Below, one piece after another: positions 5,310 through 21,772 of a stretch of 21,772 nucleotides of DNA. Origin of the DNA: a virus; the IMG/VR virus record IMGVR_UViG_3300021364_002001, positions 1-21,772 of that record. One strand, 5' to 3'. The notes beneath the pieces are model-generated. The model was not told the DNA's origin, did not search any database, and saw only the letters and a list, made by a program, of their open reading frames with translations. Both the position numbers and the translations under genes were made by a program. Every line of letters starts with the position of its first letter. Position 1 is the stretch's first letter.

Positions 5310-8300
5310 ATGGCGTCAACACTTCAACAAAATACTTTCTCAGCAACTTATAAAGATGATTTTCTCGATAGTGATAATTATCATAGAATTTTATTTAACG
5401 CTGGTAAAGCGCTACAGGCGAGAGAGTTAACTCAACTTCAAACAATTATTAATAAAGAAGTTGAGAGATTTGGTAAGAACATCTTTAAAGAAGGTGCCTT
5501 AGTAAGGCCAGGCGGAGTTGTTCTAGAAACTAATAGAGAATTTATTAAGCTTGTTAATGGTGATGCTGATTTTGCTAATGTTCAAGTCGGAGACGAATTT
5601 ACTTCAAATAATCCAAACGGAATTAAATTTAAAGTTTTAGAAAAAGTTGCTGCGTCTTCTTCACCTTCCACAGAGCCTGATACTTTATATGTTCAATATA
5701 CAGACGTTTCGGCAGGAACAGGTGGATCATCCGCAATTAGAGTTGCTGATGGAGCTATACTGACAGGTCCTGTATTTAATGCGGCAAACTTAACACTTAC
5801 AGCCGCTGCCTCAAATGCAACCGGAACTGGAAGTAGAGTTTCTGTTAATAACGGTGATTACTTTGTTCAAGGACATTTTGTCTTTGCTAATGAGCAATCA
5901 ATCATTCTTTCTAGATATTCATCAACTCCAACAGCAGATATTGGTTTTAAAATTGTAGAAAATGTAGTTACTGCTGATGACGACGCTGATCTCTACGATA
6001 ATCAAGGTGCTACTCCAAATATTGCTGCAGACGGCGCTGATCGATATCAGATTAAATTAACTCTCACAACGAGAGATCAACTTGCTTCTAATGAAAACTT
6101 TGTTTATCTTGCTAAAGTTGAAAATGGTAGAATTGTAGACCAAGTAGAAAAAGAAGATATTTACAATACAATTGGTGATTTTATTGCGTTAAGAACAAAA
6201 GAAGAATCAGGTGATTATGTTGTATCTCCTTTTAGAGCTAGTTTTAATAATTTGAATGATAGTAATTTAAGTTTAGATGTTTCTGCAGGTACTGCTTATG
6301 TCGACGGTTATAGAATTTCTGTTGATGCTCAAACAATCACCGTACCAAAAGCTCAATCAACTATTGAACTAACTGATCAAAAAATTCCAGTATCTTATGG
6401 AAACTACGTTTTAGTGCAAACAACCTCCGGTGAACAAAAAGGTTTGCCGAACATCGATACACTTGAAAAATTAAATTTATACAATGCAATTACTGCAGGT
6501 GGCTCTGTGATTGGTACTGCGAGAGTAAGAAACGTAGAAGAAGACGGCGCTTATAACAGATATTACTTGTTTGATATTCAAATGAATGCTGGATCAAGTT
6601 TTGCTACTACAAAAAGTATTGGAACATCATCAAGCGCATTTGCTGATATTGAACTAGAAGGTGGTTTAGCAGTCTTAAAAGCTACTAATAATAACTCACT
6701 TATTTTCCCATTACCAAACAAAAGTCCTACGTTCTCTCCAGGAGTTACTGATGCTACGATGGACTATAACTTTAGAGCAAGAGTTACCGACACTTCAGAC
6801 GGCTCTGGAGCCGGAACTTTTACTGCCCCTGCGGGTAGTAAATTTGGTGGGTCAGTGATTGATTATGTTGTAGCTGCCACAAACGGACCAAGCTCTACAT
6901 CAATTCCTACTTTGTCGACTACTGTTGGTGGTAATACTTTAACATACACCGGTGGTTCATCAACTACTGCTTACGAATTAATTGCTACTTTCAACGTCGA
7001 TGCTGAAAATACTAACCATATGAGAACAAAAACTCTCAACGAAATAACTAACACTGTTGCTTGGAATACAAATACAGGAACAGGAGATTCAAACGGCAGT
7101 GGTCAACTTGTTCTTGATTTAGAATATGCTGACGTATATAAACTTTTAGAATTAAAAACTCCGGATGCAGCCGGCACAGATATTAGTGATTTGTTTACTT
7201 TTGATAACGGTCAAAGAGATAACTTTTATGCTGGAGGTCGACTAATACAAAAACCAGGAACAACCGTTCCAACAGCAAATATCTTTTACAAAATACAGTA
7301 TTTTACACATAACGCTTTATCTGGAAGGCCTGGCTATTTTAGTGTAGAGTCATATGAAAATGCATTTAACAATGGATCTCTTACTGGTGGAGCTCTTACC
7401 GGAGATGCAGCGTATAAAGCAATTCCTGATTATCAAAAAGCAGATGGTTCAATTATCAATTTAAGAGATACTTTAGATTTTAGACCAGTACAAGGTACTG
7501 GCGATGACGATGCATATGATAGTAGTGGAGGTATTGTTAACTTTATTCCAAGACCTAGTTCTTCAATTACCGCCGATATTACTCATTATGAGAGAAGAAA
7601 AGATAAATTAGTAGCTGTTGTTACCAATACTAAAGACGACAGAGAAGGTGCTGGCCAAGTTGTATTACAACAAGGTGTTTCTTCTATTACCGATGCTCAA
7701 GAACCTAACACACCTACAGGATCTTTAACTCTTTATAATTTCGATTTAAATCCATATACGTTTAATGAGTCAGATTTGACTAGCGAATTTATCTCTAATA
7801 AAAGATTTACTATGAGAGATATTGGTAGACTTGAAAATAGAATTAATAAATTAGAAGAATTAACTACATTGAGCTTACTTGAGTTAGATGCTTCTTCTAT
7901 ATTGATATTAGATTCTAGTGATAATCCTAGAACAAAAGCAGGATTCTTAGCAGATAACTTCAAAAGTGAAGCTTTTTCCGATGTAACAAATCTTGATTAC
8001 AGAGCTGCGATTGATTTCGATAGATTTTCATTAAGACCTACAGTTTGGCCGAAAAATACTCGCTTGATTTATGATTCAGCTAATGGAACTGATATGGTAA
8101 ATAAAGGAGATTTTTTACTTCTTCACATCGAATCAAATGAAAATTTAATTTACCAAGATAAAGCTACTCAAATATTAAATGTTAATCCATTCGCAGTTAT
8201 TACTAATACCGGTCATATTGATCTTTCTCCTGCATCAGATGATTGGGTAGAAATAGAATACGTTCCAGATAATATTGTGAATGCCGCTGATAACGTTAGA

Positions 8301-12273: not shown

Positions 12274-12852
12274 ATGCACGGACATAAATTATACTCAGCA
12301 AGATTTACCAACAATCAAAGATCTACAATTTTGGTACAATGGCAATCTCATAAAACTGGAGCTCTGAGAGAAACTCATGTTTCAGTATCTGAACGAGACA
12401 ACATGTTTAAACATTTAATGACATTGACAAATTTAGATCAAATTGAAAAGAATACGGTTGAATATGGAAAACAGCAAACAGCATTCATTAAAGAATATTA
12501 CAAAAATGTAGTTGAGCGAGGATATAAAAACAGAACTCAAACCATTGACGGCGCTTTTGTGTATGAAGACATTTTAAACTTTATTTTTAAGTTTGATCCT
12601 GAAAAAAATGACGAAATTCTTTTTGATCTAAAACTTGGTATCTTTGACATGGAAGAAATTACAATGGATGATTCTCAAACTGAATTAAAAGAATCAATTC
12701 GTACCGCTAAAACTCCTATAGAATTAATTTATTTACTAGCAGAATCTGGTCTATTTCCGAATATGCCAAAGAAAACTACACCGAAGAAAAAAAGAGCGCC
12801 TAAGAAAACTAAAACAGTAGTTGATTCAAGCCCAGATAGTGAACAAATTTAA
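12274..12852 (+). CDS. Unrecognised protein with Lys-rich tail
   Basis: A 192-residue protein I do not recognise, last gene of the + strand block. The first 110 residues look like a small mixed alpha/beta fold followed by a helix (KQQTAFIKEYYKNVVERGYK). The middle is acidic, and residues 163-180 are strongly basic and Pro/Lys-rich (TTPKKKRAPKKTK), an extended tail that could bind nucleic acid or an acidic surface. The gene follows two bases after the previous stop, so it belongs with the structural transcript. Its last 44 bases overlap the end of a leftward gene, and a hairpin begins within its final codons. A virion assembly role is suggested only by position. Confidence 0.65.
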   Translation: MHGHKLYSARFTNNQRSTILVQWQSHKTGALRETHVSVSERDNMFKHLMTLTNLDQIEKNTVEYGKQQTAFIKEYYKNVVERGYKNRTQTIDGAFVYEDILNFIFKFDPEKNDEILFDLKLGIFDMEEITMDDSQTELKESIRTAKTPIELIYLLAESGLFPNMPKKTTPKKKRAPKKTKTVVDSSPDSEQI

Positions 12853-13435
12853 CGTCGTCATTGAATTTGTTTCCTAAATAAACGTATTCTTTTGAATATT
12901 TTTTATTTAAGTCTTTTAAATATTTTTTATCTGGATCTATCTTCATCATAGTTGCCCAAGAGCTAGGAAGATATTTTACTTTTAATTTGTGTTTTACCAT
13001 TTCCCAAACGAAATCTTCTTCTCCGTTAACAGGCCCGGGTTTTGAACCGTTCTTGATAAAGTATTCTTCCCAATAGAGCTTATTCTTTTTAAATTCTTCG
13101 TAAATGAATTGAGTATCTTTTGGATAGAATTTATAAAATCCACCGTTTATAAATCTAATGTCTGACCACCAAGAATCAATTGTCAAAAATTCGCCGCGTT
13201 CAATAGGATATTCAAATAGCTTTTGATACTCGTTAATTAATTGAATGTCAATGTCAATTACACATATTGGTTCATCTAAATCACTATTAAAGAAATGCAA
13301 TTTATTCCATTGCAATTTAAAATCTTCTTTTGCTTCATTTATAATCTCAATATTTGGAATCTTATCTTTTAGATATTTCTCATATTCAATACTATACCGA
13401 TCACCAATTCTAACTGCAAATACTTTTACTGCCAT
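12809..13435 (-). CDS. DxD glycosyltransferase-like protein
   Basis: A 208-residue protein resembling GT-A fold nucleotide-sugar glycosyltransferases. The N-terminus (KVFAVRIGDRYSIEYEKYL) is shared with two neighbours in this island. A WNKLHFF segment (43-49) leads into the metal-binding DxD at 61-63 (VIDIDIQ). INGGFYKF follows near 95, in the place where GT8-like enzymes have an Asn-Gly-Gly loop. GEEDFVW and HKLKVKYLPSSW follow later, and an HYLG near the C-terminus could be the usual late His. It is the last gene of the leftward unit and overlaps the gene before it by 10 bases. Its 3' end overlaps the rightward structural block by 44 bases. Sugar donor and acceptor are unknown. Confidence 0.65.
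   Translation of the reverse strand: MAVKVFAVRIGDRYSIEYEKYLKDKIPNIEIINEAKEDFKLQWNKLHFFNSDLDEPICVIDIDIQLINEYQKLFEYPIERGEFLTIDSWWSDIRFINGGFYKFYPKDTQFIYEEFKKNKLYWEEYFIKNGSKPGPVNGEEDFVWEMVKHKLKVKYLPSSWATMMKIDPDKKYLKDLNKKYSKEYVYLGNKFNDDVKFVHYLGLNQLLF
12842..12871. terminator. AU-rich hairpin at convergent gene ends
   Basis: An 11-bp inverted repeat: AACAAATTTAA at 12842-12852 pairs with TTGAATTTGTT at 12861-12871 with one G-U pair as RNA, around an 8-base loop. It starts at the last codons of the rightward gene and lies inside the 3' coding end of the leftward gene. Its place between two converging transcripts suggests a two-way terminator or mRNA-end stabiliser. The stem is AU-rich and no long U run follows, so the call is tentative. 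Confidence 0.4.
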
Positions 13436-14205
13436 AATTCTTTTACTTTCGGAAATATTTCAGCTGATTGATGTAACTCAAAACGAGTAGCGTCTCTTTT
13501 TTGTGGATCAGTGTTAAACACACATACTATTTTATCATCTCTTATTTTATGCCTGTCCATATCATCAGGCCATTCGCATCCCCAATTAAAAGAATAGTAT
13601 AGAGAAGATGGTACAAATTGAAATAAATCTAAATGTCTAGTTGTAATAAAATTATCAGAACCGCCATGAAAACAGAAATAAATTTTCTTCCAATTTTCTA
13701 ATAGATCATTCCAAATAGATTGAAACATGTCTCCTTCCCAGATATATATGCCTCCATTATTACGAGCGCCGTATCTCTTTCTCCATTCTGGTTTTGCTTC
13801 ATCGTTCATGTTATGCCACCATGATCTACCGGTAATTGGTTTATCTTTAAGTAGATCTAATAAAGGTCTCATATCGTTATGAATGATAACATCGATATCA
13901 AAAGCGATTTTAATTCCTTTGAGACCCCAGCATTCAGGATTAAAATAATTTAATTTTGGTCTATCCCATAATCGAGGTAAACCATTGAGAAAATCATTTG
14001 AATTAAGCATCGCTTCAGGAGTTGATTCAGGTAATTCTGTTCCAAAAGGTAATATTTCTATATTACTATCTAATCCATCTGTATCTTCTGTTTGACAATA
14101 AAATTTAAATTCAGCTGGCAGATGTCTTTTTACCATGTTGTGTAATTTATTAATATAGTCTGCAGAATACTTGTCACCCCACTTTGAGCAGATAACATGA
14201 ATCAT
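13426..14205 (-). CDS. DxD glycosyltransferase-like protein
   Basis: A 259-residue GT-A-type glycosyltransferase-like protein. The start (HVICSKWGDKYSADYINKL) matches a family common in marine phages. LWDRPKLNYF (79-88) precedes the DxD at 103-105 (AFDIDVII), then comes NNGGIYIWEG near 150 and GGSDNFITTRHL near 181-192, the expected donor and acceptor-side loops. A Trp/Tyr-rich end (YYSFNWGCEWPDD) follows. It is homologous along its length to the proteins encoded at 12809-13435 and 14837-15427. It begins by ATGA overlap with the methyltransferase-like gene and overlaps the next gene by 10 bases. Role in glycan transfer is inferred from motifs; the substrate is unknown. Confidence 0.68.
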   Translation of the reverse strand: MIHVICSKWGDKYSADYINKLHNMVKRHLPAEFKFYCQTEDTDGLDSNIEILPFGTELPESTPEAMLNSNDFLNGLPRLWDRPKLNYFNPECWGLKGIKIAFDIDVIIHNDMRPLLDLLKDKPITGRSWWHNMNDEAKPEWRKRYGARNNGGIYIWEGDMFQSIWNDLLENWKKIYFCFHGGSDNFITTRHLDLFQFVPSSLYYSFNWGCEWPDDMDRHKIRDDKIVCVFNTDPQKRDATRFELHQSAEIFPKVKELWQ

Positions 14206-14846
14206 CTTTCACCTATTACCATATATCTTTCATGGTGATCGTCATAAGTATGAAAAGGTATTTTACCAGAATAATATATGTCTTGAATTCCTGTTTGTTC
14301 GATAAATTCTTCTAAAGAATCTACACAGTTAATATGCGCCATTTCTTCTCTAAAGTTATTTGACTGAAAAGCACAAAGGCCTTTACAATTGAATTCATTC
14401 ATCGGTAGCATGTGTTCGCACGATGTATTAATAATTAAGTCACCTTGTAATTCATCAAAATCAAAATTAAGATCCATACAATGCGTTTGAATTAAATTAC
14501 CAAATTCAGTTTTTGTATACCATAGTCTTTCTGCGATACTTAAAGTTTGTTCATCAAAATCTACTAAATGAATTTTAAATATATCTGAAAATTTAGACAT
14601 CAAAAGAGGAACTAATATCGTTCCATACCATGATCCTAATATCCATATATCTTTCTCTTTCTTATTAACAAATGGATGCATCATCAATTTTTCAATTAAC
14701 CATGATTTTGCATATACTTGATTTTCAGAAAATGATTTTGCAAAATCACTTACTCGATGAGGTTCATCGCTTGCTAATCTTTCAAGCCATTTTGAATATT
14801 TCCAAAATGGAATTGGTATTCTTCTCATTGTAGAAGTTATAGCCAT
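14202..14846 (-). CDS. Class I SAM-dependent methyltransferase-like protein
   Basis: A 214-residue protein with the outline of a Rossmann-type SAM methyltransferase. Motif I is probably WILGSWYGT (68-76), where the Gly-rich loop is GSWYG. Motif II is HLVDFDE (93-99), with Asp for the SAM ribose. A later Asp (CMDLNFD, 123-129) and LIINTSCEHM (137-146) match the motif III/IV region. The glycine loop is slightly degenerate, so catalysis is likely but not proved. It lies between two glycosyltransferase-like genes with overlaps of 10 and 4 bases, which makes methylation of a sugar or of the glycosylated product the simplest guess. No DNA-methyltransferase catalytic motif (DPPY or PC) is seen. Confidence 0.62.
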   Translation of the reverse strand: MAITSTMRRIPIPFWKYSKWLERLASDEPHRVSDFAKSFSENQVYAKSWLIEKLMMHPFVNKKEKDIWILGSWYGTILVPLLMSKFSDIFKIHLVDFDEQTLSIAERLWYTKTEFGNLIQTHCMDLNFDFDELQGDLIINTSCEHMLPMNEFNCKGLCAFQSNNFREEMAHINCVDSLEEFIEQTGIQDIYYSGKIPFHTYDDHHERYMVIGER

Positions 14847-15427
14847 TCTTTACCTTCTCCGTCATATGACATAATATAAACATCAGCATTTGGATCACAG
14901 CGATATGATCCAACTAATCCTGTTTCAAAAAAATCAATACTTTTAAAATGTCTGTGTTCTAAATACTTATCAACTCCATCAAATAGTCTAAGAGCTTTAT
15001 TTTTGTCTTTTAAAAATTGATTCCACACATGTTGCCTTTTTGATTGATTGTTCCAACTCATAACTGAAGAATTGATAGAACAATAACCATATAAATTTCC
15101 TATTGTAATACGCTTTAATTCTTCTAAGTCTTCCCAGTCAGTTTGAAGTAAAGTCATATGTTCTTGTGGTTGAAATATATTTTTTATGTCTTTTAATATT
15201 TTAATATCTAGATCAAAAAAGATTCCTTCATCTGAAAATTCTTCTTCGTTAAAGAATCTCATTTTATTCCAAACCGTTGGCAAAGAATCGTCTGCCGGCA
15301 TTGTTTCAAAATCTTTACTTAAACTTTCGTCATCAGTAATTACAATTAAATCGCCAACTTGATCTGCAAGTCGATACACGTAATCATTACTATATTTTGT
15401 ATTTACTTTTAAACAGTATTTTTTCAT
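14837..15427 (-). CDS. DxD glycosyltransferase-like protein
   Basis: A 196-residue member of the same GT-A-like group as the products of 12809-13435 and 13426-14205. It starts with CLKVNTKYSNDYVYRLAD, has WNKMRFFN at 53-60, the DxD at 72-74 (FFDLDIKI), INSSVMSWNN near 118, and VDKYLEHRHF near 151-160. The Asn-Gly-Gly loop of its relatives is replaced by INSS, so activity or donor may differ. The C-terminal His-containing part is short. It overlaps the upstream unrecognised gene by four bases (ATGA) and the methyltransferase-like gene by 10. Substrate unknown. Confidence 0.62.
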   Translation of the reverse strand: MKKYCLKVNTKYSNDYVYRLADQVGDLIVITDDESLSKDFETMPADDSLPTVWNKMRFFNEEEFSDEGIFFDLDIKILKDIKNIFQPQEHMTLLQTDWEDLEELKRITIGNLYGYCSINSSVMSWNNQSKRQHVWNQFLKDKNKALRLFDGVDKYLEHRHFKSIDFFETGLVGSYRCDPNADVYIMSYDGEGKEWL

Positions 15428-16221
15428 TCAATTCTATCAATATATTTTATGCCATTTAGATCTTCTAAATTGTAATTATCTATTTCACCTACATTTATTA
15501 ATCCCCAACCATCTAAAGATACATTATTTTCACGTGCCCAGTTCATAGCTTTTTTCTTTACTTCATCAAAATTTTCTTGAAACTCAGCTCCGTAATTAAA
15601 TATTATTTGAAAATCTGCTGACCATGTTTTTAAAGGTAAAATGTTCTCGTCTGATACATGCTCATCTCTATCCATATAAGCATCATAAGGAGGTTTTCCA
15701 ACTTGGCAATAATTTAAACTAACTGTACCAGGCGTTTGTGCAAAATTCCAATCTTTTCTTTCAAGTTTATATCTAGGTCTAGGTTTAAATGTACAAACAA
15801 TAGACTTACGATTTCCTTTATGAATATTTTCTATTCTGTGAATAATGATATTAAGATCCTCAATGGCTTGCCGAACACGTGAAGGCGCGTTATGAAAATA
15901 ATCAGATCTTTTTTCGTCGTATATATTATCAATTCCTATGGCTTTTTCAAAATATGTGTGTAGTATATTTAAAGATTCTTGATTGCTTAAATCTAGATCT
16001 GTAGGAATATCATTGTCGTATTTATTTATGGTGTTTATACATTTTGCAATACGCAATAAATTATAATCTAAATCATCGTATAATCTATTAAATCCATATA
16101 TTCTATCTCTTTCGTATATGTTATATTTAACGGACTGAACCTCGTCATACCACATGTGACTAAACTCATTATCATATGGAATAATATCTATATCACAACC
16201 GTTATCGAATATAATTTTCAT
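15424..16221 (-). CDS. Unrecognised protein next to radical SAM genes
   Basis: A 265-residue protein I do not recognise. There is no signal peptide or membrane segment. The first half looks mostly helical (YNLLRIAKCINTINKY, then VRQAIEDLNIIIHRIEN), with His and Tyr/Trp residues (EFSHMWYDE, 19-27). The second half looks beta-rich (SIVCTFKPRPRYKL, then PGTVSLNYCQVGKPPYDAYM, then SADFQIIFNYG). The gene shares a single base with the stop of the N-twitch radical SAM gene and overlaps the next glycosyltransferase by four, so it is tightly coupled to both. It could be a partner, acceptor or further enzyme of the radical SAM step, but the sequence gives no catalytic signature. Confidence 0.6.
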   Translation of the reverse strand: MKIIFDNGCDIDIIPYDNEFSHMWYDEVQSVKYNIYERDRIYGFNRLYDDLDYNLLRIAKCINTINKYDNDIPTDLDLSNQESLNILHTYFEKAIGIDNIYDEKRSDYFHNAPSRVRQAIEDLNIIIHRIENIHKGNRKSIVCTFKPRPRYKLERKDWNFAQTPGTVSLNYCQVGKPPYDAYMDRDEHVSDENILPLKTWSADFQIIFNYGAEFQENFDEVKKKAMNWARENNVSLDGWGLINVGEIDNYNLEDLNGIKYIDRIE

Positions 16222-17531
16222 TAGTAGTAATCCTTAAATTCTGGAAAAACAGATTTAAATGTTGTTTGTCTTCTTTTATCTGCTTCTCTTAAGTAGATTG
16301 TTAAATCTAGTCTTTTTTTACTATGGTCATCATCTTTATGATTTTGCCAATATCTGTAAATTCTTTCCATTTTATGAGTTTCAAACTCAGTAAACCATTT
16401 TGAATTTTTCATATATTGCCAGCTTTCTTCAATATAATGGCCTTCTTTCATTATTTTACAGTCCATAAAATTAGGGTTTCTAACGTAATGCAAATGAATA
16501 GTTGGACCTCTGCTATACTCTTGTTTAATTAACTCTATATCTTTTAAAAGATCTGTGAAACTACTAATGCATAAAGCATTATATGCACACATTATTGAAA
16601 CTTCTACTTCAGGTAACTCTTTCATTATTTTCTTCAAGTTGTTTATCCAATTATTATAATTCATTCCGTATCGTATATAATCATTTCTTTCGCCATGAGC
16701 TTCAGCGCTTGTATAAAGTTCAAAATTTTTAACACGCTTTTTGTCTATAATTTTTCTTGCAGATTTTATAAATTTATTAATCAGTTTATCAGGTGTTCCT
16801 AAATTAGTATTAATACCTAAAGTGAAATTAGTATTAGGAGTTTTTGTTTTTTCTATATAATCAAGAACTTCAAAAGTATCTTTTGCCATTAATGGTTCAC
16901 CACCAGTCATTCTAAATGTATGTAAATTTTTATACAAACTTGGCCACCATTTCCAAAATGCTTCTTGATATGGATTGTATTGGTTATTCGGTATAGGTAT
17001 TCGTCCTAACATTTTTGTTGGTTCTAAGTTATGATGCCTTTGTGATGTTGGATAAGGGCCGTATTGTTTAATTTCATCCATCCATTTTGAACTAGAATGA
17101 GTATTACAGTACATACATTTAAAATTGCAAGCATTACTAAAACTTACTTCAACATAGGTTGGATCAAAGTTTTCGTCACCTGACATTTTTGATATCTCAT
17201 TAAAATGAGGATCACTCCAATCAAAACTACTTTTGTAATGACGATCACTAAACACACCCTCTTTTGAATCTTCTAATCTCCAACAATAATCACATTCTTT
17301 AGGCCTAACACCTTTAAGCATTTCTTTACGGCGTTCTTTTTTAAACATCGTATTATGTAGAGCGGTTGGATTATCTCTTAACTCATGTAAAGGAATTGTG
17401 TGCAATGATGGATGGTGACAAGAATGTGTTTGGCCATTTTGTAAATGAATAGTTACTTGTGTCCACTTAGCAAGGCATAAGCTTGGACTAATAGAATCTA
17501 ATTTATTTTTTGTATTATGCAAATCTTTCAA
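16221..17531 (-). CDS. Radical SAM protein with N-terminal twitch domain
   Basis: A 436-residue radical SAM enzyme. The SAM-binding [4Fe-4S] motif is C135-x3-C139-x2-C142 (ACNFKCMYC), followed by the SAM-contact loop TGGEPL (209-214). Upstream, C19, C38 (SCHHPSLH), C80 and C83 (ECDYCW) form the N-terminal twitch cluster site that marks the 'twitch domain-containing radical SAM' group, many of which come from marine phages and bacteria. No substrate is known to me. The start is a TTG; the first in-frame ATG lies near residue 62 and would remove two of the twitch cysteines, so the TTG is preferred. AGGAA lies about 11 bases upstream. The gene overlaps the preceding radical SAM gene by 17 bases. 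Confidence 0.85.
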   Translation of the reverse strand: MKDLHNTKNKLDSISPSLCLAKWTQVTIHLQNGQTHSCHHPSLHTIPLHELRDNPTALHNTMFKKERRKEMLKGVRPKECDYCWRLEDSKEGVFSDRHYKSSFDWSDPHFNEISKMSGDENFDPTYVEVSFSNACNFKCMYCNTHSSSKWMDEIKQYGPYPTSQRHHNLEPTKMLGRIPIPNNQYNPYQEAFWKWWPSLYKNLHTFRMTGGEPLMAKDTFEVLDYIEKTKTPNTNFTLGINTNLGTPDKLINKFIKSARKIIDKKRVKNFELYTSAEAHGERNDYIRYGMNYNNWINNLKKIMKELPEVEVSIMCAYNALCISSFTDLLKDIELIKQEYSRGPTIHLHYVRNPNFMDCKIMKEGHYIEESWQYMKNSKWFTEFETHKMERIYRYWQNHKDDDHSKKRLDLTIYLREADKRRQTTFKSVFPEFKDYY

Positions 17532-18252
17532 AACTATCTTTTCCTTCTCTTAATCCATATACGTTACACCCAGAACATGGATGCATTGAACGTTTTCCTT
17601 TTTTTAACATTCTTCTATATTCATCAAAATAATTCCATACTTCTTCAATATGTTTTTCTTTTAAGTTACCACCACATATAGTTTTATTCCAATCATTAAC
17701 ACATAGAAAAGCATCGCCATTAAAATCAATAAACATCTTATAGAAAGGTAAATAACACGGTCTATCAAAGTGATGTTCTGTAAAATCAGAATAAATTTCA
17801 TTTCTATTTACTTCATAATCTGGTCCATTATAATAATGTTTATAAACTACTTCAAAGTCTTGTAGAAACGAAGAAAAATATTCTTCTTGGTCGTCGTCAT
17901 ACATTGATATTTTTATGTTTGTAACTCCTGCCTCATGAAGAGTTTTTGCTTTATATTTATCGAGATAATCTCCATTTGTAATTACTGTTACTGCTTTTAA
18001 ATTTAGATCTTTAATAACTGTTTTAATAATATTTTCTAAATTTTTATGCAATAACGGTTCTCCCATTCCTGCCAATGAAATAGAACCAGTATATGAAATA
18101 TCTTTTAAATTTTTATTAATAGCTTCAGCAGTATCATATTCTATTTTCTTTTTTGTATTAGGATAACCTACACCACGAGGACAAAACGAACATGATCGAT
18201 TACAGACGTCGATTGGATCAATTTCTATTTTTTGAATGAGGTTTGTTTTCAT
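17515..18252 (-). CDS. Radical SAM protein with C-terminal twitch/SPASM domain
   Basis: A radical SAM enzyme of about 245 residues. Counting from the ATG at 18252, the cluster motif is C17-x3-C21-x2-C24 (CNRSCSFC), followed by AGMGEPLLHKN, the GGEP-type loop. Four C-terminal cysteines (C166, C184 and C226-x2-C229) match a single auxiliary-cluster twitch or SPASM domain, the arrangement of BtrN-like dehydrogenases and many peptide or sugar modifiers. A GTG at 18270 would add six residues; the ATG is preferred because it is the stronger codon and lessens overlap with the aminotransferase gene (35 rather than 53 bases), but neither has a good Shine-Dalgarno. It is followed directly by a second radical SAM gene. 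Function beyond radical chemistry is not readable. Confidence 0.85.
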   Translation of the reverse strand: MKTNLIQKIEIDPIDVCNRSCSFCPRGVGYPNTKKKIEYDTAEAINKNLKDISYTGSISLAGMGEPLLHKNLENIIKTVIKDLNLKAVTVITNGDYLDKYKAKTLHEAGVTNIKISMYDDDQEEYFSSFLQDFEVVYKHYYNGPDYEVNRNEIYSDFTEHHFDRPCYLPFYKMFIDFNGDAFLCVNDWNKTICGGNLKEKHIEEVWNYFDEYRRMLKKGKRSMHPCSGCNVYGLREGKDSFERFA

Positions 18253-19057
18253 ACCAAGTTTCTTTATCACACAAAGCCATTCGACCTTCTCGAGTAGCTA
18301 TAGTTTTATTTATGTCACTATAGTTATTTATTAACACATAATTACCATGCGTTTCTCTACAATCGTATTCTGATTCAATTATTGATTTTGTTTCAAGCAT
18401 TCTTTCAACGTGAAAAGGTATTTCAATTAGCATTTCCGTTAATTGATTCTCTACACCACCGATACAATGGTGTGCATGCCTGAGATCTTGAATCTGTTTT
18501 ATAAAATACTCATTGCCATAACACCATCCAAATCGAATACCAGGTAGAGGTAAAGATTTTGTCATTGTTTTAAATCTAATTAAATTAGCTCTATCGTTAT
18601 ATTGAATAGGATAAAAATCGGAATATGCTTCATCCAACATCACCCATTGATATTCATCACATAATGAATCTACCTGATCAAGCATTAAAATACTTCCATC
18701 ATTACCATTGTGAGAAGCGACATATGCTATATCTTTTCCGGATTCTACTTTATAGGCATCTTTATAACCTTTAACAGCTTTCCATGAATTGCCAAATATA
18801 TCTAATCCTAAATTATTTAAAGCACAAAATTGAACAACACGATTGATTAAATCAGAAATACCAAATCCTATTGCAATGTTATACGGTGATACGTTATGAT
18901 AGTTTGATAATATATTATAACATTCTGAAGCTTCTGCAAAATGATTTGAATCAAATTTATAGTTTACGTATCTATCAATACAAACGTTAAAAGATAAATC
19001 TAATCGGTTATCGTTTTTAAAATGTTTTTTTGTCCAGTCTGGTCTAATATTTTCCAT
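18218..19057 (-). CDS. Compact HisC-like PLP aminotransferase
   Basis: A 279-residue fold-type I, class I/II aminotransferase related to histidinol-phosphate aminotransferase, about 70 residues shorter than usual HisC. Key residues are present: N24 in the substrate strand (LSFNV); GFGISDLI (64-71) in the place of the PLP-phosphate 'GADE' loop; SHNGNDG (115-121) in place of 'NPNNPTG', with N117; LDEAYSDF (141-148) with the PLP aspartate D142 and Tyr; the Schiff-base lysine K167 in TMTKSLPLPGIRFGW with R175; and a late R259 (GRMAL) where HisC binds the substrate acid group. The shortening lies mostly between residues 71 and 115. Aminotransfer to a keto sugar or keto acid of this island is inferred. 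It overlaps the QueC-like gene by 14 bases. Confidence 0.8.
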   Translation of the reverse strand: MENIRPDWTKKHFKNDNRLDLSFNVCIDRYVNYKFDSNHFAEASECYNILSNYHNVSPYNIAIGFGISDLINRVVQFCALNNLGLDIFGNSWKAVKGYKDAYKVESGKDIAYVASHNGNDGSILMLDQVDSLCDEYQWVMLDEAYSDFYPIQYNDRANLIRFKTMTKSLPLPGIRFGWCYGNEYFIKQIQDLRHAHHCIGGVENQLTEMLIEIPFHVERMLETKSIIESEYDCRETHGNYVLINNYSDINKTIATREGRMALCDKETWYENKPHSKNRN

Positions 19058-19583
19058 AATCTATCATTTTTAATCGATTAAATGCCCAAGCTCTTTCTTG
19101 ACAATTAAAACATTTATTGCATCTTTTTCCTTTAGTTGCACAACACGTATGAGCATACTTTATAATTTCATTTATTTCTGGAACATGTTCTAAGCCTATT
19201 TTTAAAACTTCGTCTTTATACATTTCGCCAAATGGAGTTTTTATACAACTATGAACTTTTTCTTCTTTTATTATTCTTGTTGGAATATCAGCATCATGCA
19301 ATACCGGTATAGGAGGATTTTTTGTAATTCCAATGTAAACAAGATCAACTTCATTTTGTTCTAATATTTTATTAGCTGCATATATGCCTGATCTTTTTTT
19401 AACTAATGGAAAAGTTTTAAATGATCTATATTCAATATTTAAAATGTCACATATTTTTTTGGCAAATATTTTGTTATTAGTTATTTGTTCATAACTATAG
19501 CCAATTACTTTATGTTCTTTTCTAGTAATCGCTGCTAGTATACTTGAATCTAGCCCGCCTGACATTAAGACTGCAATTTTCAA
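19044..19583 (-). CDS. QueC-like PP-loop ATPase
   Basis: A 179-residue member of the QueC/PP-loop superfamily, whose enzymes adenylate a carboxylate and convert it to an amide or nitrile; classical QueC makes preQ0 from carboxydeazaguanine. The PP-loop is SGGLDSS at 8-14. KTPFGEMYKDEVLKIG (115-130) matches the QueC 'PL-DLTK-EI-K-G' helix. The C-terminal zinc site is kept: C147 or C148, then C155-x2-C158-x2-C161, followed by RAWAF. The usual 'VP-RN' motif is changed to KKRSGIYAAN, and the protein is shorter than normal QueC (about 220-230). The start is TTG, with GGAG eight bases upstream and TTGA overlap with the previous stop; the next ATG would cut off the beta strand before the PP-loop. 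No QueD, QueE or FolE is in the window. Confidence 0.8.
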   Translation of the reverse strand: MKIAVLMSGGLDSSILAAITRKEHKVIGYSYEQITNNKIFAKKICDILNIEYRSFKTFPLVKKRSGIYAANKILEQNEVDLVYIGITKNPPIPVLHDADIPTRIIKEEKVHSCIKTPFGEMYKDEVLKIGLEHVPEINEIIKYAHTCCATKGKRCNKCFNCQERAWAFNRLKMIDYGKY

Positions 19584-20146
19584 TTTATATTCTCCGTTCC
19601 ATCTGTGTAATGTAAAGCCTTTGGATTTTTAAAATTATGATAACCTACTAATGAATTCCATTCTAAAGGCAGACTTCCTATTTCATTATCTGTTAACCAT
19701 TTAAACTGATGTAAAAATAAACCTTTTACATTATTAATTAAATCAGGATTTAATATTGAATTTTTAGGATGAGCACAATTCCATAAAATTAATGAAGACC
19801 AATTTTTTCTTTTATACGTTGTTTGAACTTGACCTTCCATTTTAAATTTAGATTTAGGAATATATTCTGGATGTTTACAAACCATGACAGCGTAATTATT
19901 ATCAATTAATTTTATTAAGTTGTTTACATTATCTAAAAATATAAAATCACTATCACAATAAAATGCCCATCCTTTACGTTTACATATATGTGGAATTAAA
20001 AATCTGGAATACGTAAATTCTGTAGATCCATCTTGAATTCTAGTAATTAAATCATTAGGTGTCGGTTCAACACTTAATCCTAATGAGTGTTTACATCTAT
20101 CGTAGTCTTTCTGGTACCGACTGTCATAGCCAACAAAATATCTCAT
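19580..20146 (-). CDS. GT8-like glycosyltransferase
   Basis: A 188-residue glycosyltransferase-like protein with the layout of short GT8-type enzymes in marine phages. The start is FVGYDSRYQKDYDRC. TEFTYSRFLIPHI (42-54) is followed by WAFYCDSDFIF, with the DxD at 65-67 for the metal and sugar nucleotide. NWSSLILWNC (115-124) is the acceptor-side loop, LPLEWNSLVGY (159-169) is conserved in the family, and ALHYTDGTE ends with the late His (H179) that usually completes the metal site. It belongs to a different subgroup from the three DxD proteins further left. It overlaps both neighbours by four bases and lies directly before the QueC-like gene. Confidence 0.8.
   Translation of the reverse strand: MRYFVGYDSRYQKDYDRCKHSLGLSVEPTPNDLITRIQDGSTEFTYSRFLIPHICKRKGWAFYCDSDFIFLDNVNNLIKLIDNNYAVMVCKHPEYIPKSKFKMEGQVQTTYKRKNWSSLILWNCAHPKNSILNPDLINNVKGLFLHQFKWLTDNEIGSLPLEWNSLVGYHNFKNPKALHYTDGTENIN
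19592..19595 (-). promoter_or_regulatory. Ribosome binding site deciding a TTG start
   Basis: On the - strand this reads GGAG, eight bases before the TTG at 19583. It supports that TTG as the real start of the QueC-like gene, because the first internal ATG would remove part of the strand leading into the PP-loop. Confidence 0.55.
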
Positions 20147-20925
20147 ATTCTATCCTCTTGTGTAATATTATATAGAGGTCCTTCATAATATCCTTGAGTT
20201 ATATTTCCATTTGTGACATTATCGATTCTATTCGAAGTTGTTAAATTGCCATTTCCCCATGTTATTAATCTGTTTTTATTATTCATAAAAATTTCTATTT
20301 TTTTATTGGTTACCAAATAAACCGGTACTTGCGAAAAAGTTCCTAGAGTTGTTAAACCACTTCTTTCGGACACAACATATTTTGAATGAATCATATTATC
20401 TAATATCCAATCGAATTTATTTGTGTAGTCGAATTCAATGATATCGTAAGAAGTATCATAGAAAGGCGATAAATCAATTCCACGATTATCTCCAAATCCA
20501 TCAAACCCTACGTTTGAACTCTTTTTTATCATAATTTGATTTTTATCACCAATCCATTTTCTTTTAAAATACCACATTGAATTGACATATTCGTGTGAAG
20601 CATATTTTAATTCTTCAGCGCTGGTGTATATATTGAAATTTAAATTCAATCCGTTATCTTCAAATTGCTCACATATGAATTTAACTCTACTTAAATTAGT
20701 TTCTTCGTCTTCAGGTTTAAACTTATCTAATTCAGTTTTTGATAATATAATAGCTATTTTAGCATCTCTAGGTTTTAATCGTAATTTATGAAGCTTTAAA
20801 TATTCTGTTAATCTATTTGCAATTGATGTTATAACTAATCCACTATCCCAACATGTGTTTAAAACAATAATATCATCGGCATGTTGAATACTAAAATAAC
20901 TTCCAGAACTATATAATCTTTTCAT
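20143..20925 (-). CDS. Possible GT-B-fold glycosyltransferase
   Basis: A 260-residue protein with only weak family signs. A beta strand with NTCWDSGLVITSI starts the N-terminal domain. Near residues 182-205 there is KYVVSERSGLTTLGTFSQVPVYLV, whose 'S-x-SG-x-x-x-L-x-x-x-x-x-x-P' pattern resembles the C-terminal donor loop of GT-B glycosyltransferases such as the ADP-heptose transferase group. I see no DxD and no membrane segment. Its overlaps of four bases with the oxygenase-like gene and with the GT8-like gene, plus the glycosyltransferase-rich surroundings, favour a sugar-transfer or glycan role. It remains a guess; 'protein of unknown function' would be the safe name. Confidence 0.5.
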   Translation of the reverse strand: MKRLYSSGSYFSIQHADDIIVLNTCWDSGLVITSIANRLTEYLKLHKLRLKPRDAKIAIILSKTELDKFKPEDEETNLSRVKFICEQFEDNGLNLNFNIYTSAEELKYASHEYVNSMWYFKRKWIGDKNQIMIKKSSNVGFDGFGDNRGIDLSPFYDTSYDIIEFDYTNKFDWILDNMIHSKYVVSERSGLTTLGTFSQVPVYLVTNKKIEIFMNNKNRLITWGNGNLTTSNRIDNVTNGNITQGYYEGPLYNITQEDRI

Positions 20926-21587
20926 ATTTTTAAACTTTCAATGAGAGGAATTGAATTTAAATCTACTGCAATAAAGAATGTGTAAGTATAATCTTCAGTA
21001 GCAAAAGCTCGATGTTCATCAACAACGCTAGATAAATATATTCTTCCTGGTTCAAAGTCTTTTAATTTATATCCATTTGAATAATGAAAATGATATTCTT
21101 TATCTGTCTTATTCGTTCCCCAAAGCCTAAGGTGCGTAATATAATCAGGAAGCATATCAACATGTGGTTTTAGATGGCCGGTATTATTCCACCATAAAAT
21201 ACAAGATCTTAACATATGATTTGAAATTATCTCTAAAGGTTTTAGACTTTCTAATTTCATTACCTCTGTATGAGATCTAAAATCCGGATACCAATATATT
21301 TTATCTGGATGATGATCAGCCCAGGTATCAAGAGGCCAACACCCTGGATCTATTTTATTATCCAAACTTCCATTCATATTAACTAATGGCAATCCATATC
21401 TAGGAAATTGTGTATGAGAAGGTCCCCACTGTTTAAACTTTTCATGATATTCTTTTATTTCTTCTTCAAAAAGTTTACTATCAATTTTAATATCCAAAGG
21501 TATAATATAATCAGTATGTAGCTTTTGAAAAATATCATAATTAATCTTGTCGCATAAAGACATTCTATCCATTAAATTTTTTACCAT
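20922..21587 (-). CDS. 2OG-Fe(II) oxygenase-like protein
   Basis: A 221-residue protein of the aspartyl/asparaginyl beta-hydroxylase-like, jelly-roll 2-oxoglutarate oxygenase type. The metal site is readable: H142-x-D144 in GHLKPHVDML, then the distal H192 in VVDEHRAF. HLRLWG (152-157) is the strand that often follows the HxD, and a later EDYTYTFFIAVDL ends the barrel. The 2OG-binding Arg is not certain; R193 beside the distal His or another residue could serve. These enzymes hydroxylate amino-acid side chains, small molecules or sugars, and the substrate here is unknown. The gene overlaps the GT-B-like gene by four bases and follows a second oxygenase-like gene by four bases. Confidence 0.7.
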   Translation of the reverse strand: MVKNLMDRMSLCDKINYDIFQKLHTDYIIPLDIKIDSKLFEEEIKEYHEKFKQWGPSHTQFPRYGLPLVNMNGSLDNKIDPGCWPLDTWADHHPDKIYWYPDFRSHTEVMKLESLKPLEIISNHMLRSCILWWNNTGHLKPHVDMLPDYITHLRLWGTNKTDKEYHFHYSNGYKLKDFEPGRIYLSSVVDEHRAFATEDYTYTFFIAVDLNSIPLIESLKI

Positions 21588-21591
21588 ACTA

Positions 21592-21772
21592 TTATTCCTT
21601 TAAACAAGCTACAAAATGAATTCTTTCTATTTCTCTATGAAGATGCAAAAATGAATGCATTTTAGTCGTGTCAACTAAATAACTTTGACCTACGTCTGGC
21701 ATTCTATAAATTTGATCTTCATGATAAAACATACTTAATTCAGTTGTTTGAAGTGGAATATGAATTCTTTTT
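21592..21772 (-). CDS. 2OG oxygenase-like protein, 5' end cut off
   Basis: The C-terminal 59 residues of a leftward gene whose start lies beyond the right window edge. The frame is open from the edge to a TAA at 21592-21594. It shows the Asp/Asn beta-hydroxylase ending: RIHIPLQTT, then YRMPDVGQSYLVD, a probable distal His in TKMHSF, and ERIHFVACLK, where the Arg would be the 2OG-binding residue. The HxD half would lie outside the window. It is separated from the next oxygenase-like gene by four bases and belongs to the same leftward unit. It is a second gene, not a broken part of its neighbour, because both carry their own barrel end. Confidence 0.6.
   Translation of the reverse strand, partial: KRIHIPLQTTELSMFYHEDQIYRMPDVGQSYLVDTTKMHSFLHLHREIERIHFVACLKE

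Follow-up and report, generated by a model that had tools for sequence, protein, structure and literature searches.

The window analyzed here, a linear virus record of 21,772 bases (IMGVR_UViG_3300021364_002001), carries genes of T4-type baseplate wedge and tail proteins on the plus strand and a series of leftward genes on the other. The leftward genes include a decoration operon of ten genes of a T4-like aquatic phage, the constant heart of which is a pair of genes encoding a compact HisC-like aminotransferase and a BtrN-type radical S-adenosylmethionine (SAM) protein. This pair, found again in numerous phages that are not related to each other, is probably a functional two-gene unit. Aquatic phages are rich in radical SAM genes, hardly any of which has been assigned a reaction. 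The linked pair, with a characterized structural relative (BtrN) and a familiar partner chemistry, suggests a concrete and testable reaction in a cultured cyanophage, Synechococcus phage S-SCSM2R.

The HisC-like/BtrN-type pair

Judged by its sequence and structural model, the radical SAM protein of the pair (17515-18270) is a BtrN-type twitch protein, i.e. one with a single auxiliary cluster that is fully ligated by four cysteines (as defined in PMC6231123). A phmmer search of the Protein Data Bank (PDB) matched BtrN (4m7t) with an E-value of 8e-23 over residues 10-240, and the next solved relative gave 2e-6 over the core only. With the AlphaFold2 (AF2) model (predicted local distance difference test score, pLDDT, 89.6), Foldseek found the same entry, BtrN in complex with AdoMet and 2-deoxy-scyllo-inosamine (2-DOIA), at an E-value of 7e-18 and a TM-score of 0.81, and the next protein at 3e-7. 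Identity to BtrN is about 24%. The radical SAM cluster cysteines (C23, C27 and C30, CxxxCxxC) and the predicted auxiliary cluster ligands (C172, C190, C232 and C235) are invariant in 29 relatives, the latter being aligned with C169, C187 and the C-terminal pair of BtrN. So is R156, which is aligned with the active-site residue Arg152 of BtrN in the numbering of the phmmer alignment. BtrN is a two-electron dehydrogenase that converts 2-DOIA to an amino-ketone, and its auxiliary cluster is fully cysteine-ligated (PMC9012708).

The AF2 model of its partner (18218-19057, pLDDT 92.7) has a complete but short HisC fold, and HisC is the best Foldseek match (query TM-score, TMq, 0.73-0.79). Among 30 relatives, the pyridoxal phosphate (PLP) residues K167 (Schiff base), D142, Y145 and R175 are invariant, and R259 is found in at least 90%. 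The TIGR01141 score of 46.7 bits is far below the HisC equivalog cut-off of 276.55 and, in our own reading of the alignments, the N-terminal substrate motif of HisC is replaced by LSxNVCYD. Hence, this protein is probably not an enzyme of histidine biosynthesis.

Viral relatives were gathered with a profile of HisC-linked proteins. The viral collections consist of fragments, and the adjacency counts come from pattern-based scans. Of the 30 deduplicated viral HisC-like genes, 24 have a same-strand BtrN-like gene no more than 180 bp away, in almost every case overlapping or abutting. For three others the distance is up to 5.7 kb, two loci are too short to tell, and one has no BtrN-like gene. The HisC-like gene usually comes first, the order being reversed in L068/L069, L097, L099 and L101. 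In a tree of 55 BtrN-like proteins, 18 linked rows belong to one group of 21 with a Shimodaira-Hasegawa-like approximate likelihood ratio test (SH-aLRT) support of 94, and two of the three unlinked rows of this group have a HisC gene in the same locus. Linked rows are also found in other BtrN-like lineages, which suggests repeated pairing or loss. The pairwise distances for one protein correlate with those for the other (r 0.52), and none of 5000 permutations gave a value as high.

The pair occupies unrelated contexts: tail islands (L002, L087), the interval from RecA/UvsX to a DnaB-like helicase (L069), the interval from DNA ligase to ClpX (L017), and large sugar islands (L020, L113, L115). 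Its commonest neighbor is a GT8-like gene (17/30 loci), and the larger islands also contain epimerase, PIG-L deacetylase, DegT aminotransferase and amidinotransferase-like genes (labeled by similarity to annotated Campylobacter phage genes), a gene content consistent with amino-sugar or aminocyclitol chemistry. In S-SCSM2R (PQ898602, L002 11992-13606), a good experimental system that is grown on Synechococcus WH7803, the adjacent HisC and BtrN genes lie between tail genes and are annotated only as histidinol-phosphate aminotransferase and SPASM protein. In L069 (3711-7545), a 2-oxoglutarate (2OG) oxygenase gene precedes the pair, far from any glycan island.

A HisC-like fold would also suit an enzyme that acts alone on a phosphorylated small molecule, for instance serinol phosphate or another amino alcohol phosphate for glycans, with the BtrN-like protein making a separate sugar modification. 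The Campylobacter jejuni capsule, to which an ATP-dependent amide-forming enzyme joins (S)-serinol phosphate (PMC11800397), provides a parallel that would also give the QueC-like protein of the window a role. However, the two genes stay linked in unrelated contexts, an argument for a single pathway. We consider such a division of labor quite unlikely.

In cells, no BtrN-like neighbor was found for any of 80 HisC-like loci. A BtrN-like profile was also run against about 1,190 genomes of three phyla. It produced four hits rated strong or fairly strong, split evenly between the first two phyla; the third, which was searched without a positive control, produced none. No HisC-like gene adjoins these matches in the regions read. 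Close cellular BtrN-like genes in L308 (8433-10368) and L309 (4646-6587) stand beside genes of a Gfo/Idh/MocA oxidoreductase and a TauE-type transporter, possibly in a polyol pathway, and another is located in a polysaccharide-type locus with a cytidylyltransferase and other sugar-type genes.

The operon in the window and in sister phages

Twelve complete leftward open reading frames (ORFs) span positions 12809-21587, and the 3' end of a thirteenth was read from the strand at 21592-21771 (Table 1). Neighboring genes overlap by 1, 4, 4, 4, 4, 4, 10, 10, 14, 17 and 53 bases, and the single gap is 4 bases long. The start of the BtrN-type gene is uncertain: it is either GTG 18270 or ATG 18252, and the latter leaves an overlap of 35 bases. 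The coding strand switches at 12.8 kb, matching a sign change of the GC skew, and the last operon gene overlaps the tail gene 12274-12852 tail to tail. Promoter-like matches in the window show no excess over shuffled sequences (70 vs 70.9), whereas terminator-like sites number 9 vs 3.6 in shuffles. Because twelve long ORFs overlap and have homologues in the same order elsewhere, this gene set is not a product of chance.

The same operon is found at the same site in five sister phages (L005, L006, L009, L098 and L102), where it converges on the tail gene that corresponds to 12274-12852. Its order there is oxygenase, oxygenase, kinase-like, 20143 family, GT8-like, glycosyltransferase, HisC, BtrN-like, methyltransferase-like and two further glycosyltransferases. 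The P-loop kinase-like gene is absent from the window and, conversely, all five sister operons are without the QueC-like gene, the N-twitch radical SAM gene and the gene of a 265-residue protein. In the window, the first of these lies between the GT8-like and HisC-like genes. The other two stand between the BtrN-like and methyltransferase-like genes, together with a displaced glycosyltransferase gene (14837-15427), the counterpart of which in the sister phages is located between the GT8-like gene and HisC. Identity to the sister proteins is 37-66% for seven proteins (the pair, the GT8-like protein, three other glycosyltransferase-like proteins and the methyltransferase-like protein) and 30-49% for the oxygenase-like and 20143 proteins, whereas for the adjoining tail proteins it is 24-48% and in most cases 25-40%. 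As the order is kept and the operon proteins are mostly better conserved than the tail proteins, the operon is stable and not a random island.

The first-pass annotation of this DNA took the QueC-like, HisC-like, SPASM-type, N-twitch and 265-residue protein genes for a single core that makes an unusual group, which is then attached. These five genes are adjacent in the window, and QueC-like and N-twitch genes co-occur in four phage loci (L016, L021, L038 and L260), as would be expected of one pathway. However, three of the five are missing in the sister operons, and neither HisC nor BtrN is present in any of the 80 N-twitch loci examined. These two findings largely refute the five-gene core, and we regard a common pathway of all five genes as highly improbable. 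By the refuting condition named in that annotation, separate occurrence in related phages, the genes are independent, and solely the HisC and "SPASM" genes form a unit. The QueC-like, N-twitch and 265-residue protein genes are probably extra lineage-specific tailoring genes of this phage. The synthesis and attachment of an unusual group, by contrast, is still the best reading of a decoration operon beside tail genes.

The QueC-like protein carries the PP-loop SGGLDS and the QueC-type C-terminal Cys4 motif CCATKGKRCNKCFNC, but scores below the QueC equivalog cut-off (44.3 vs 150.3 bits), and no FolE, QueD or QueE partner was recognized in the window, which is itself a fragment. Its role, confined to this phage, could be to activate a carboxylate; the C. 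jejuni capsule (PMC11800397) offers a precedent in which an amino alcohol phosphate is joined through an ATP-dependent amide-forming reaction. Single-sequence scans of viral contigs gave no relative of this protein or of the 265-residue protein, a result that rules out close relatives only: the same kind of scan also missed the HisC relatives, which were found by an alignment-based search. The 265-residue protein is unrelated to that of the equally long gene that follows the pair in S-SCSM2R (BLASTP E-value 12).

N-twitch relatives are very common: a single scan gave 92 loci, and the genes often form arrays. Four to seven paralogues stand in tandem in the aquatic viral contigs L021, L023, L030, L034, L035, L064, L233, L235, L236 and L260, and the arrays of L021 to L064 are adjoined by an unlinked BtrN-like gene. 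The closest relatives of the window N-twitch protein are in L204-L206 (63-66% identity) and L208, where the neighbors, identified by eye, are carbamoyltransferase-like, HAD and nucleotidyltransferase-like genes and, in L208, an amidinotransferase-like gene. QueC-like PP-loop proteins are encoded in L016 (6155-6946), L021 (19884-20555), L038 (18591-19340) and L260 (2340-2864). Every such locus seen also has N-twitch genes, which overlap the QueC-like gene in L038, compared with 15 of 122 HisC/BtrN-derived loci.

Most gene labels of the first-pass annotation held up. The ORF list and the strand reading bear out thirteen leftward genes with the overlaps and the single gap given above, and matches to Pfam or curated families confirm the QueC-like, HisC-like and N-twitch labels. 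Library support for the glycosyltransferases extends to 14837-15427 and 19580-20146, whereas 12809, 13426 and 20143 have no direct match; the 13426 protein is weakly homologous to the 14837 family (via L010, 8e-6). The methyltransferase-like label was given by eye and the protein has relatives in the sister operons, but no direct library match. Of the two oxygenase-like genes, the truncated one gains support only through its L009 relative, and the other matched nothing, its HxD...H motif being seen by eye. Radical SAM/SPASM families do match the "SPASM" protein (1.4e-12 and 6.1e-11), but it is predicted to be of the BtrN twitch type with one auxiliary cluster instead of the two of a SPASM protein.

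Table 1. Leftward genes of the window and the evidence for their assignment
Positions	Strand	Predicted product	Evidence
12809..13435	-	Glycosyltransferase-like (by eye), last operon gene	50-55% identity in sisters
13426..14205	-	Glycosyltransferase-like, best conserved operon member	59-66% identity in sisters
14202..14846	-	Methyltransferase-like (by eye)	51-53% identity to sister operon members; no Pfam match
14837..15427	-	Glycosyltransferase-like	phrog_1962 1.2e-8 (phage glycosyltransferase family)
15424..16221	-	265-residue protein	Pfam, PHROG, phage and viral-contig searches without a match; absent from sister operons
16221..17531	-	N-twitch radical SAM protein	NF033640, 322.6 bits vs cut-off 170, full length; absent from sister operons
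17515..18270	-	BtrN-type twitch radical SAM protein, 251 aa from GTG (245 aa from ATG 18252)	PDB phmmer, AF2, Foldseek, relatives
18218..19057	-	Compact HisC-like PLP aminotransferase, 279 aa	PF00155 2.4e-10; TIGR01141 2e-12; AF2; Foldseek
19044..19583	-	Short QueC-like PP-loop ATPase	PF06508 1.6e-11, over cut-off; absent from L005/L006/L009/L098/L102
19580..20146	-	GT8-like glycosyltransferase	PF01501 2.4e-4, just under Pfam cut-off; phrog_28018 1.3e-40
20143..20925	-	Operon protein, possibly GT-B-like (by eye)	30-34% in sisters; no library match
20922..21587	-	Oxygenase-like (HxD...H by eye), operon member	36-41% in sisters; no library match
21592..21771	-	Aspartyl/asparaginyl-hydroxylase-like, 3' end, cut by window edge	40-49% in sisters; L009 relative PF05118 6.2e-6, over cut-off

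Proposed chemistry

We consider it about an even bet that the pair comprises a radical SAM dehydrogenase, which would oxidize an alcohol to a ketone, and an aminotransferase, which would turn the ketone into an amine, and that the product is attached by glycosyltransferases. This proposal builds on gene content, the linkage of the pair, the conservation of fold and ligand residues, and synteny with or without the three extra genes, from which we infer a reaction, an order of steps, a substrate and a target. The radical SAM enzyme would abstract a hydrogen from the carbinol carbon and pass an electron to its auxiliary cluster, resulting in a ketone, which the aminotransferase would exchange for an amine, using PLP as cofactor and an amino acid as donor. 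The butirosin pathway employs the same aminotransferase both before and after BtrN. In a similar manner, a single aminotransferase could act on either side of the radical SAM step here, which would lead to a diamine. The operon glycosyltransferases would then attach the small amino compound or amino sugar, perhaps methylated, the most likely target being the virion (tail) surface or the host envelope. If true, chemistry hitherto known from aminoglycoside antibiotics would serve phages in making amine building blocks. The bolder idea of a virus-specific cassette for an amine or diamine, possibly aminocyclitol-like, that decorates virions or host surfaces, with antibiotic-type chemistry being widely used by phages, appears somewhat unlikely to us.

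Several points weigh against the dehydrogenase-aminotransferase proposal. Enzymes of the HisC fold also include decarboxylases. Several BtrN-like phage genes have no HisC nearby, pointing to other uses of the fold, and the stand-alone cassettes of L017 and L069, which lack nearby glycosyltransferases, are a misfit for a purely glycan role. Furthermore, sequence clustering is a poor guide to the function of radical SAM enzymes (PMC6231123).

Stand-alone cassettes would be accommodated if the pair modified a protein such as a tail fiber, in which a side-chain hydroxyl would be oxidized to a ketone or aldehyde, much like serine by anaerobic sulfatase-maturating enzymes (anSMEs), and then aminated, the oxygenases providing the hydroxyl beforehand. 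The tail-to-tail arrangement of the operon with tail genes, its Asp/Asn-hydroxylase-like gene and the 2OG oxygenase directly before the pair in L069 are all in line with this. The best matches of the radical SAM protein, however, are to BtrN and not to anSMEs or peptide maturases, it has one predicted auxiliary cluster instead of two, and HisC-family enzymes are known for acting on small molecules. We consider protein modification an unlikely explanation.

DNA hypermodification, either with a QueC-like enzyme as in 7-deazaguanine phages or as an amino-modified pyrimidine, is brought to mind by the QueC-like gene of the window and by the position of the L069 pair among replication genes. Radical SAM and PLP enzymes are known in some thymidine hypermodifications, which also favors it. 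On the other hand, QueC is absent from the sister operons, and in the complete S-SCSM2R genome, which has the pair, genes of the QueD, GTP cyclohydrolase I and thymidylate synthase families are all missing. Among 15 carrier records, mostly fragments, such genes are found in only three, one and one, respectively. With QueC-free sister operons and partner genes rare in carriers, deazaguanine modification has little support, and we find a DNA target of either kind very doubtful.

Comparison with known systems

We found no description of a HisC-like/BtrN-type pair in the literature (open PMC subset). In two reports (PMC2853527, PMC7029224), phage radical SAM modules are described without a function. 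The host recognition cluster of pelagimyophages and cyanomyophages resembles the window operon: it is a variable island, close to structural genes, that holds GT8 and radical SAM cassettes (PMC7029224). The passages found in its description do not mention the HisC-BtrN pair. In contrast to that cluster, the window operon keeps its gene order and, for the most part, shows higher conservation than the tail genes next to it.

The interchangeable radical SAM module of Campylobacter phages CP220/CPt10, which includes a glycine amidinotransferase, is related through the BtrN-like and HisC-like genes of phage CP20. In CP20 (L003 1258-8312), five radical SAM genes, a glycine amidinotransferase gene and a BtrN-like gene make up one module, and one gene beyond the BtrN-like gene, on the opposite strand, is an unannotated HisC-like gene (7497-8285, independent profile E-value 2.6e-16). 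Unlike in the window, the two genes are neither adjacent nor on the same strand, and the other radical SAM genes differ.

The histidinol-phosphate aminotransferase HisC is similar to the window protein in fold and PLP residues, but is about 350 residues long vs 279. SpeY, the twitch radical SAM dehydrogenase of spectinomycin biosynthesis, is a much weaker Foldseek match than BtrN (rank 5, 6.7e-7, TM-score 0.55). The closest counterpart is BtrN with its aminotransferase in the butirosin/2-deoxystreptamine pathway of Bacillus circulans, which shares with the window pair a twitch radical SAM protein, seven cysteines, Arg152 and a PLP partner. The window pair differs from it in gene overlap, phage setting, glycosyltransferase neighbors and a partner of the HisC family, the butirosin aminotransferase belonging to another one.

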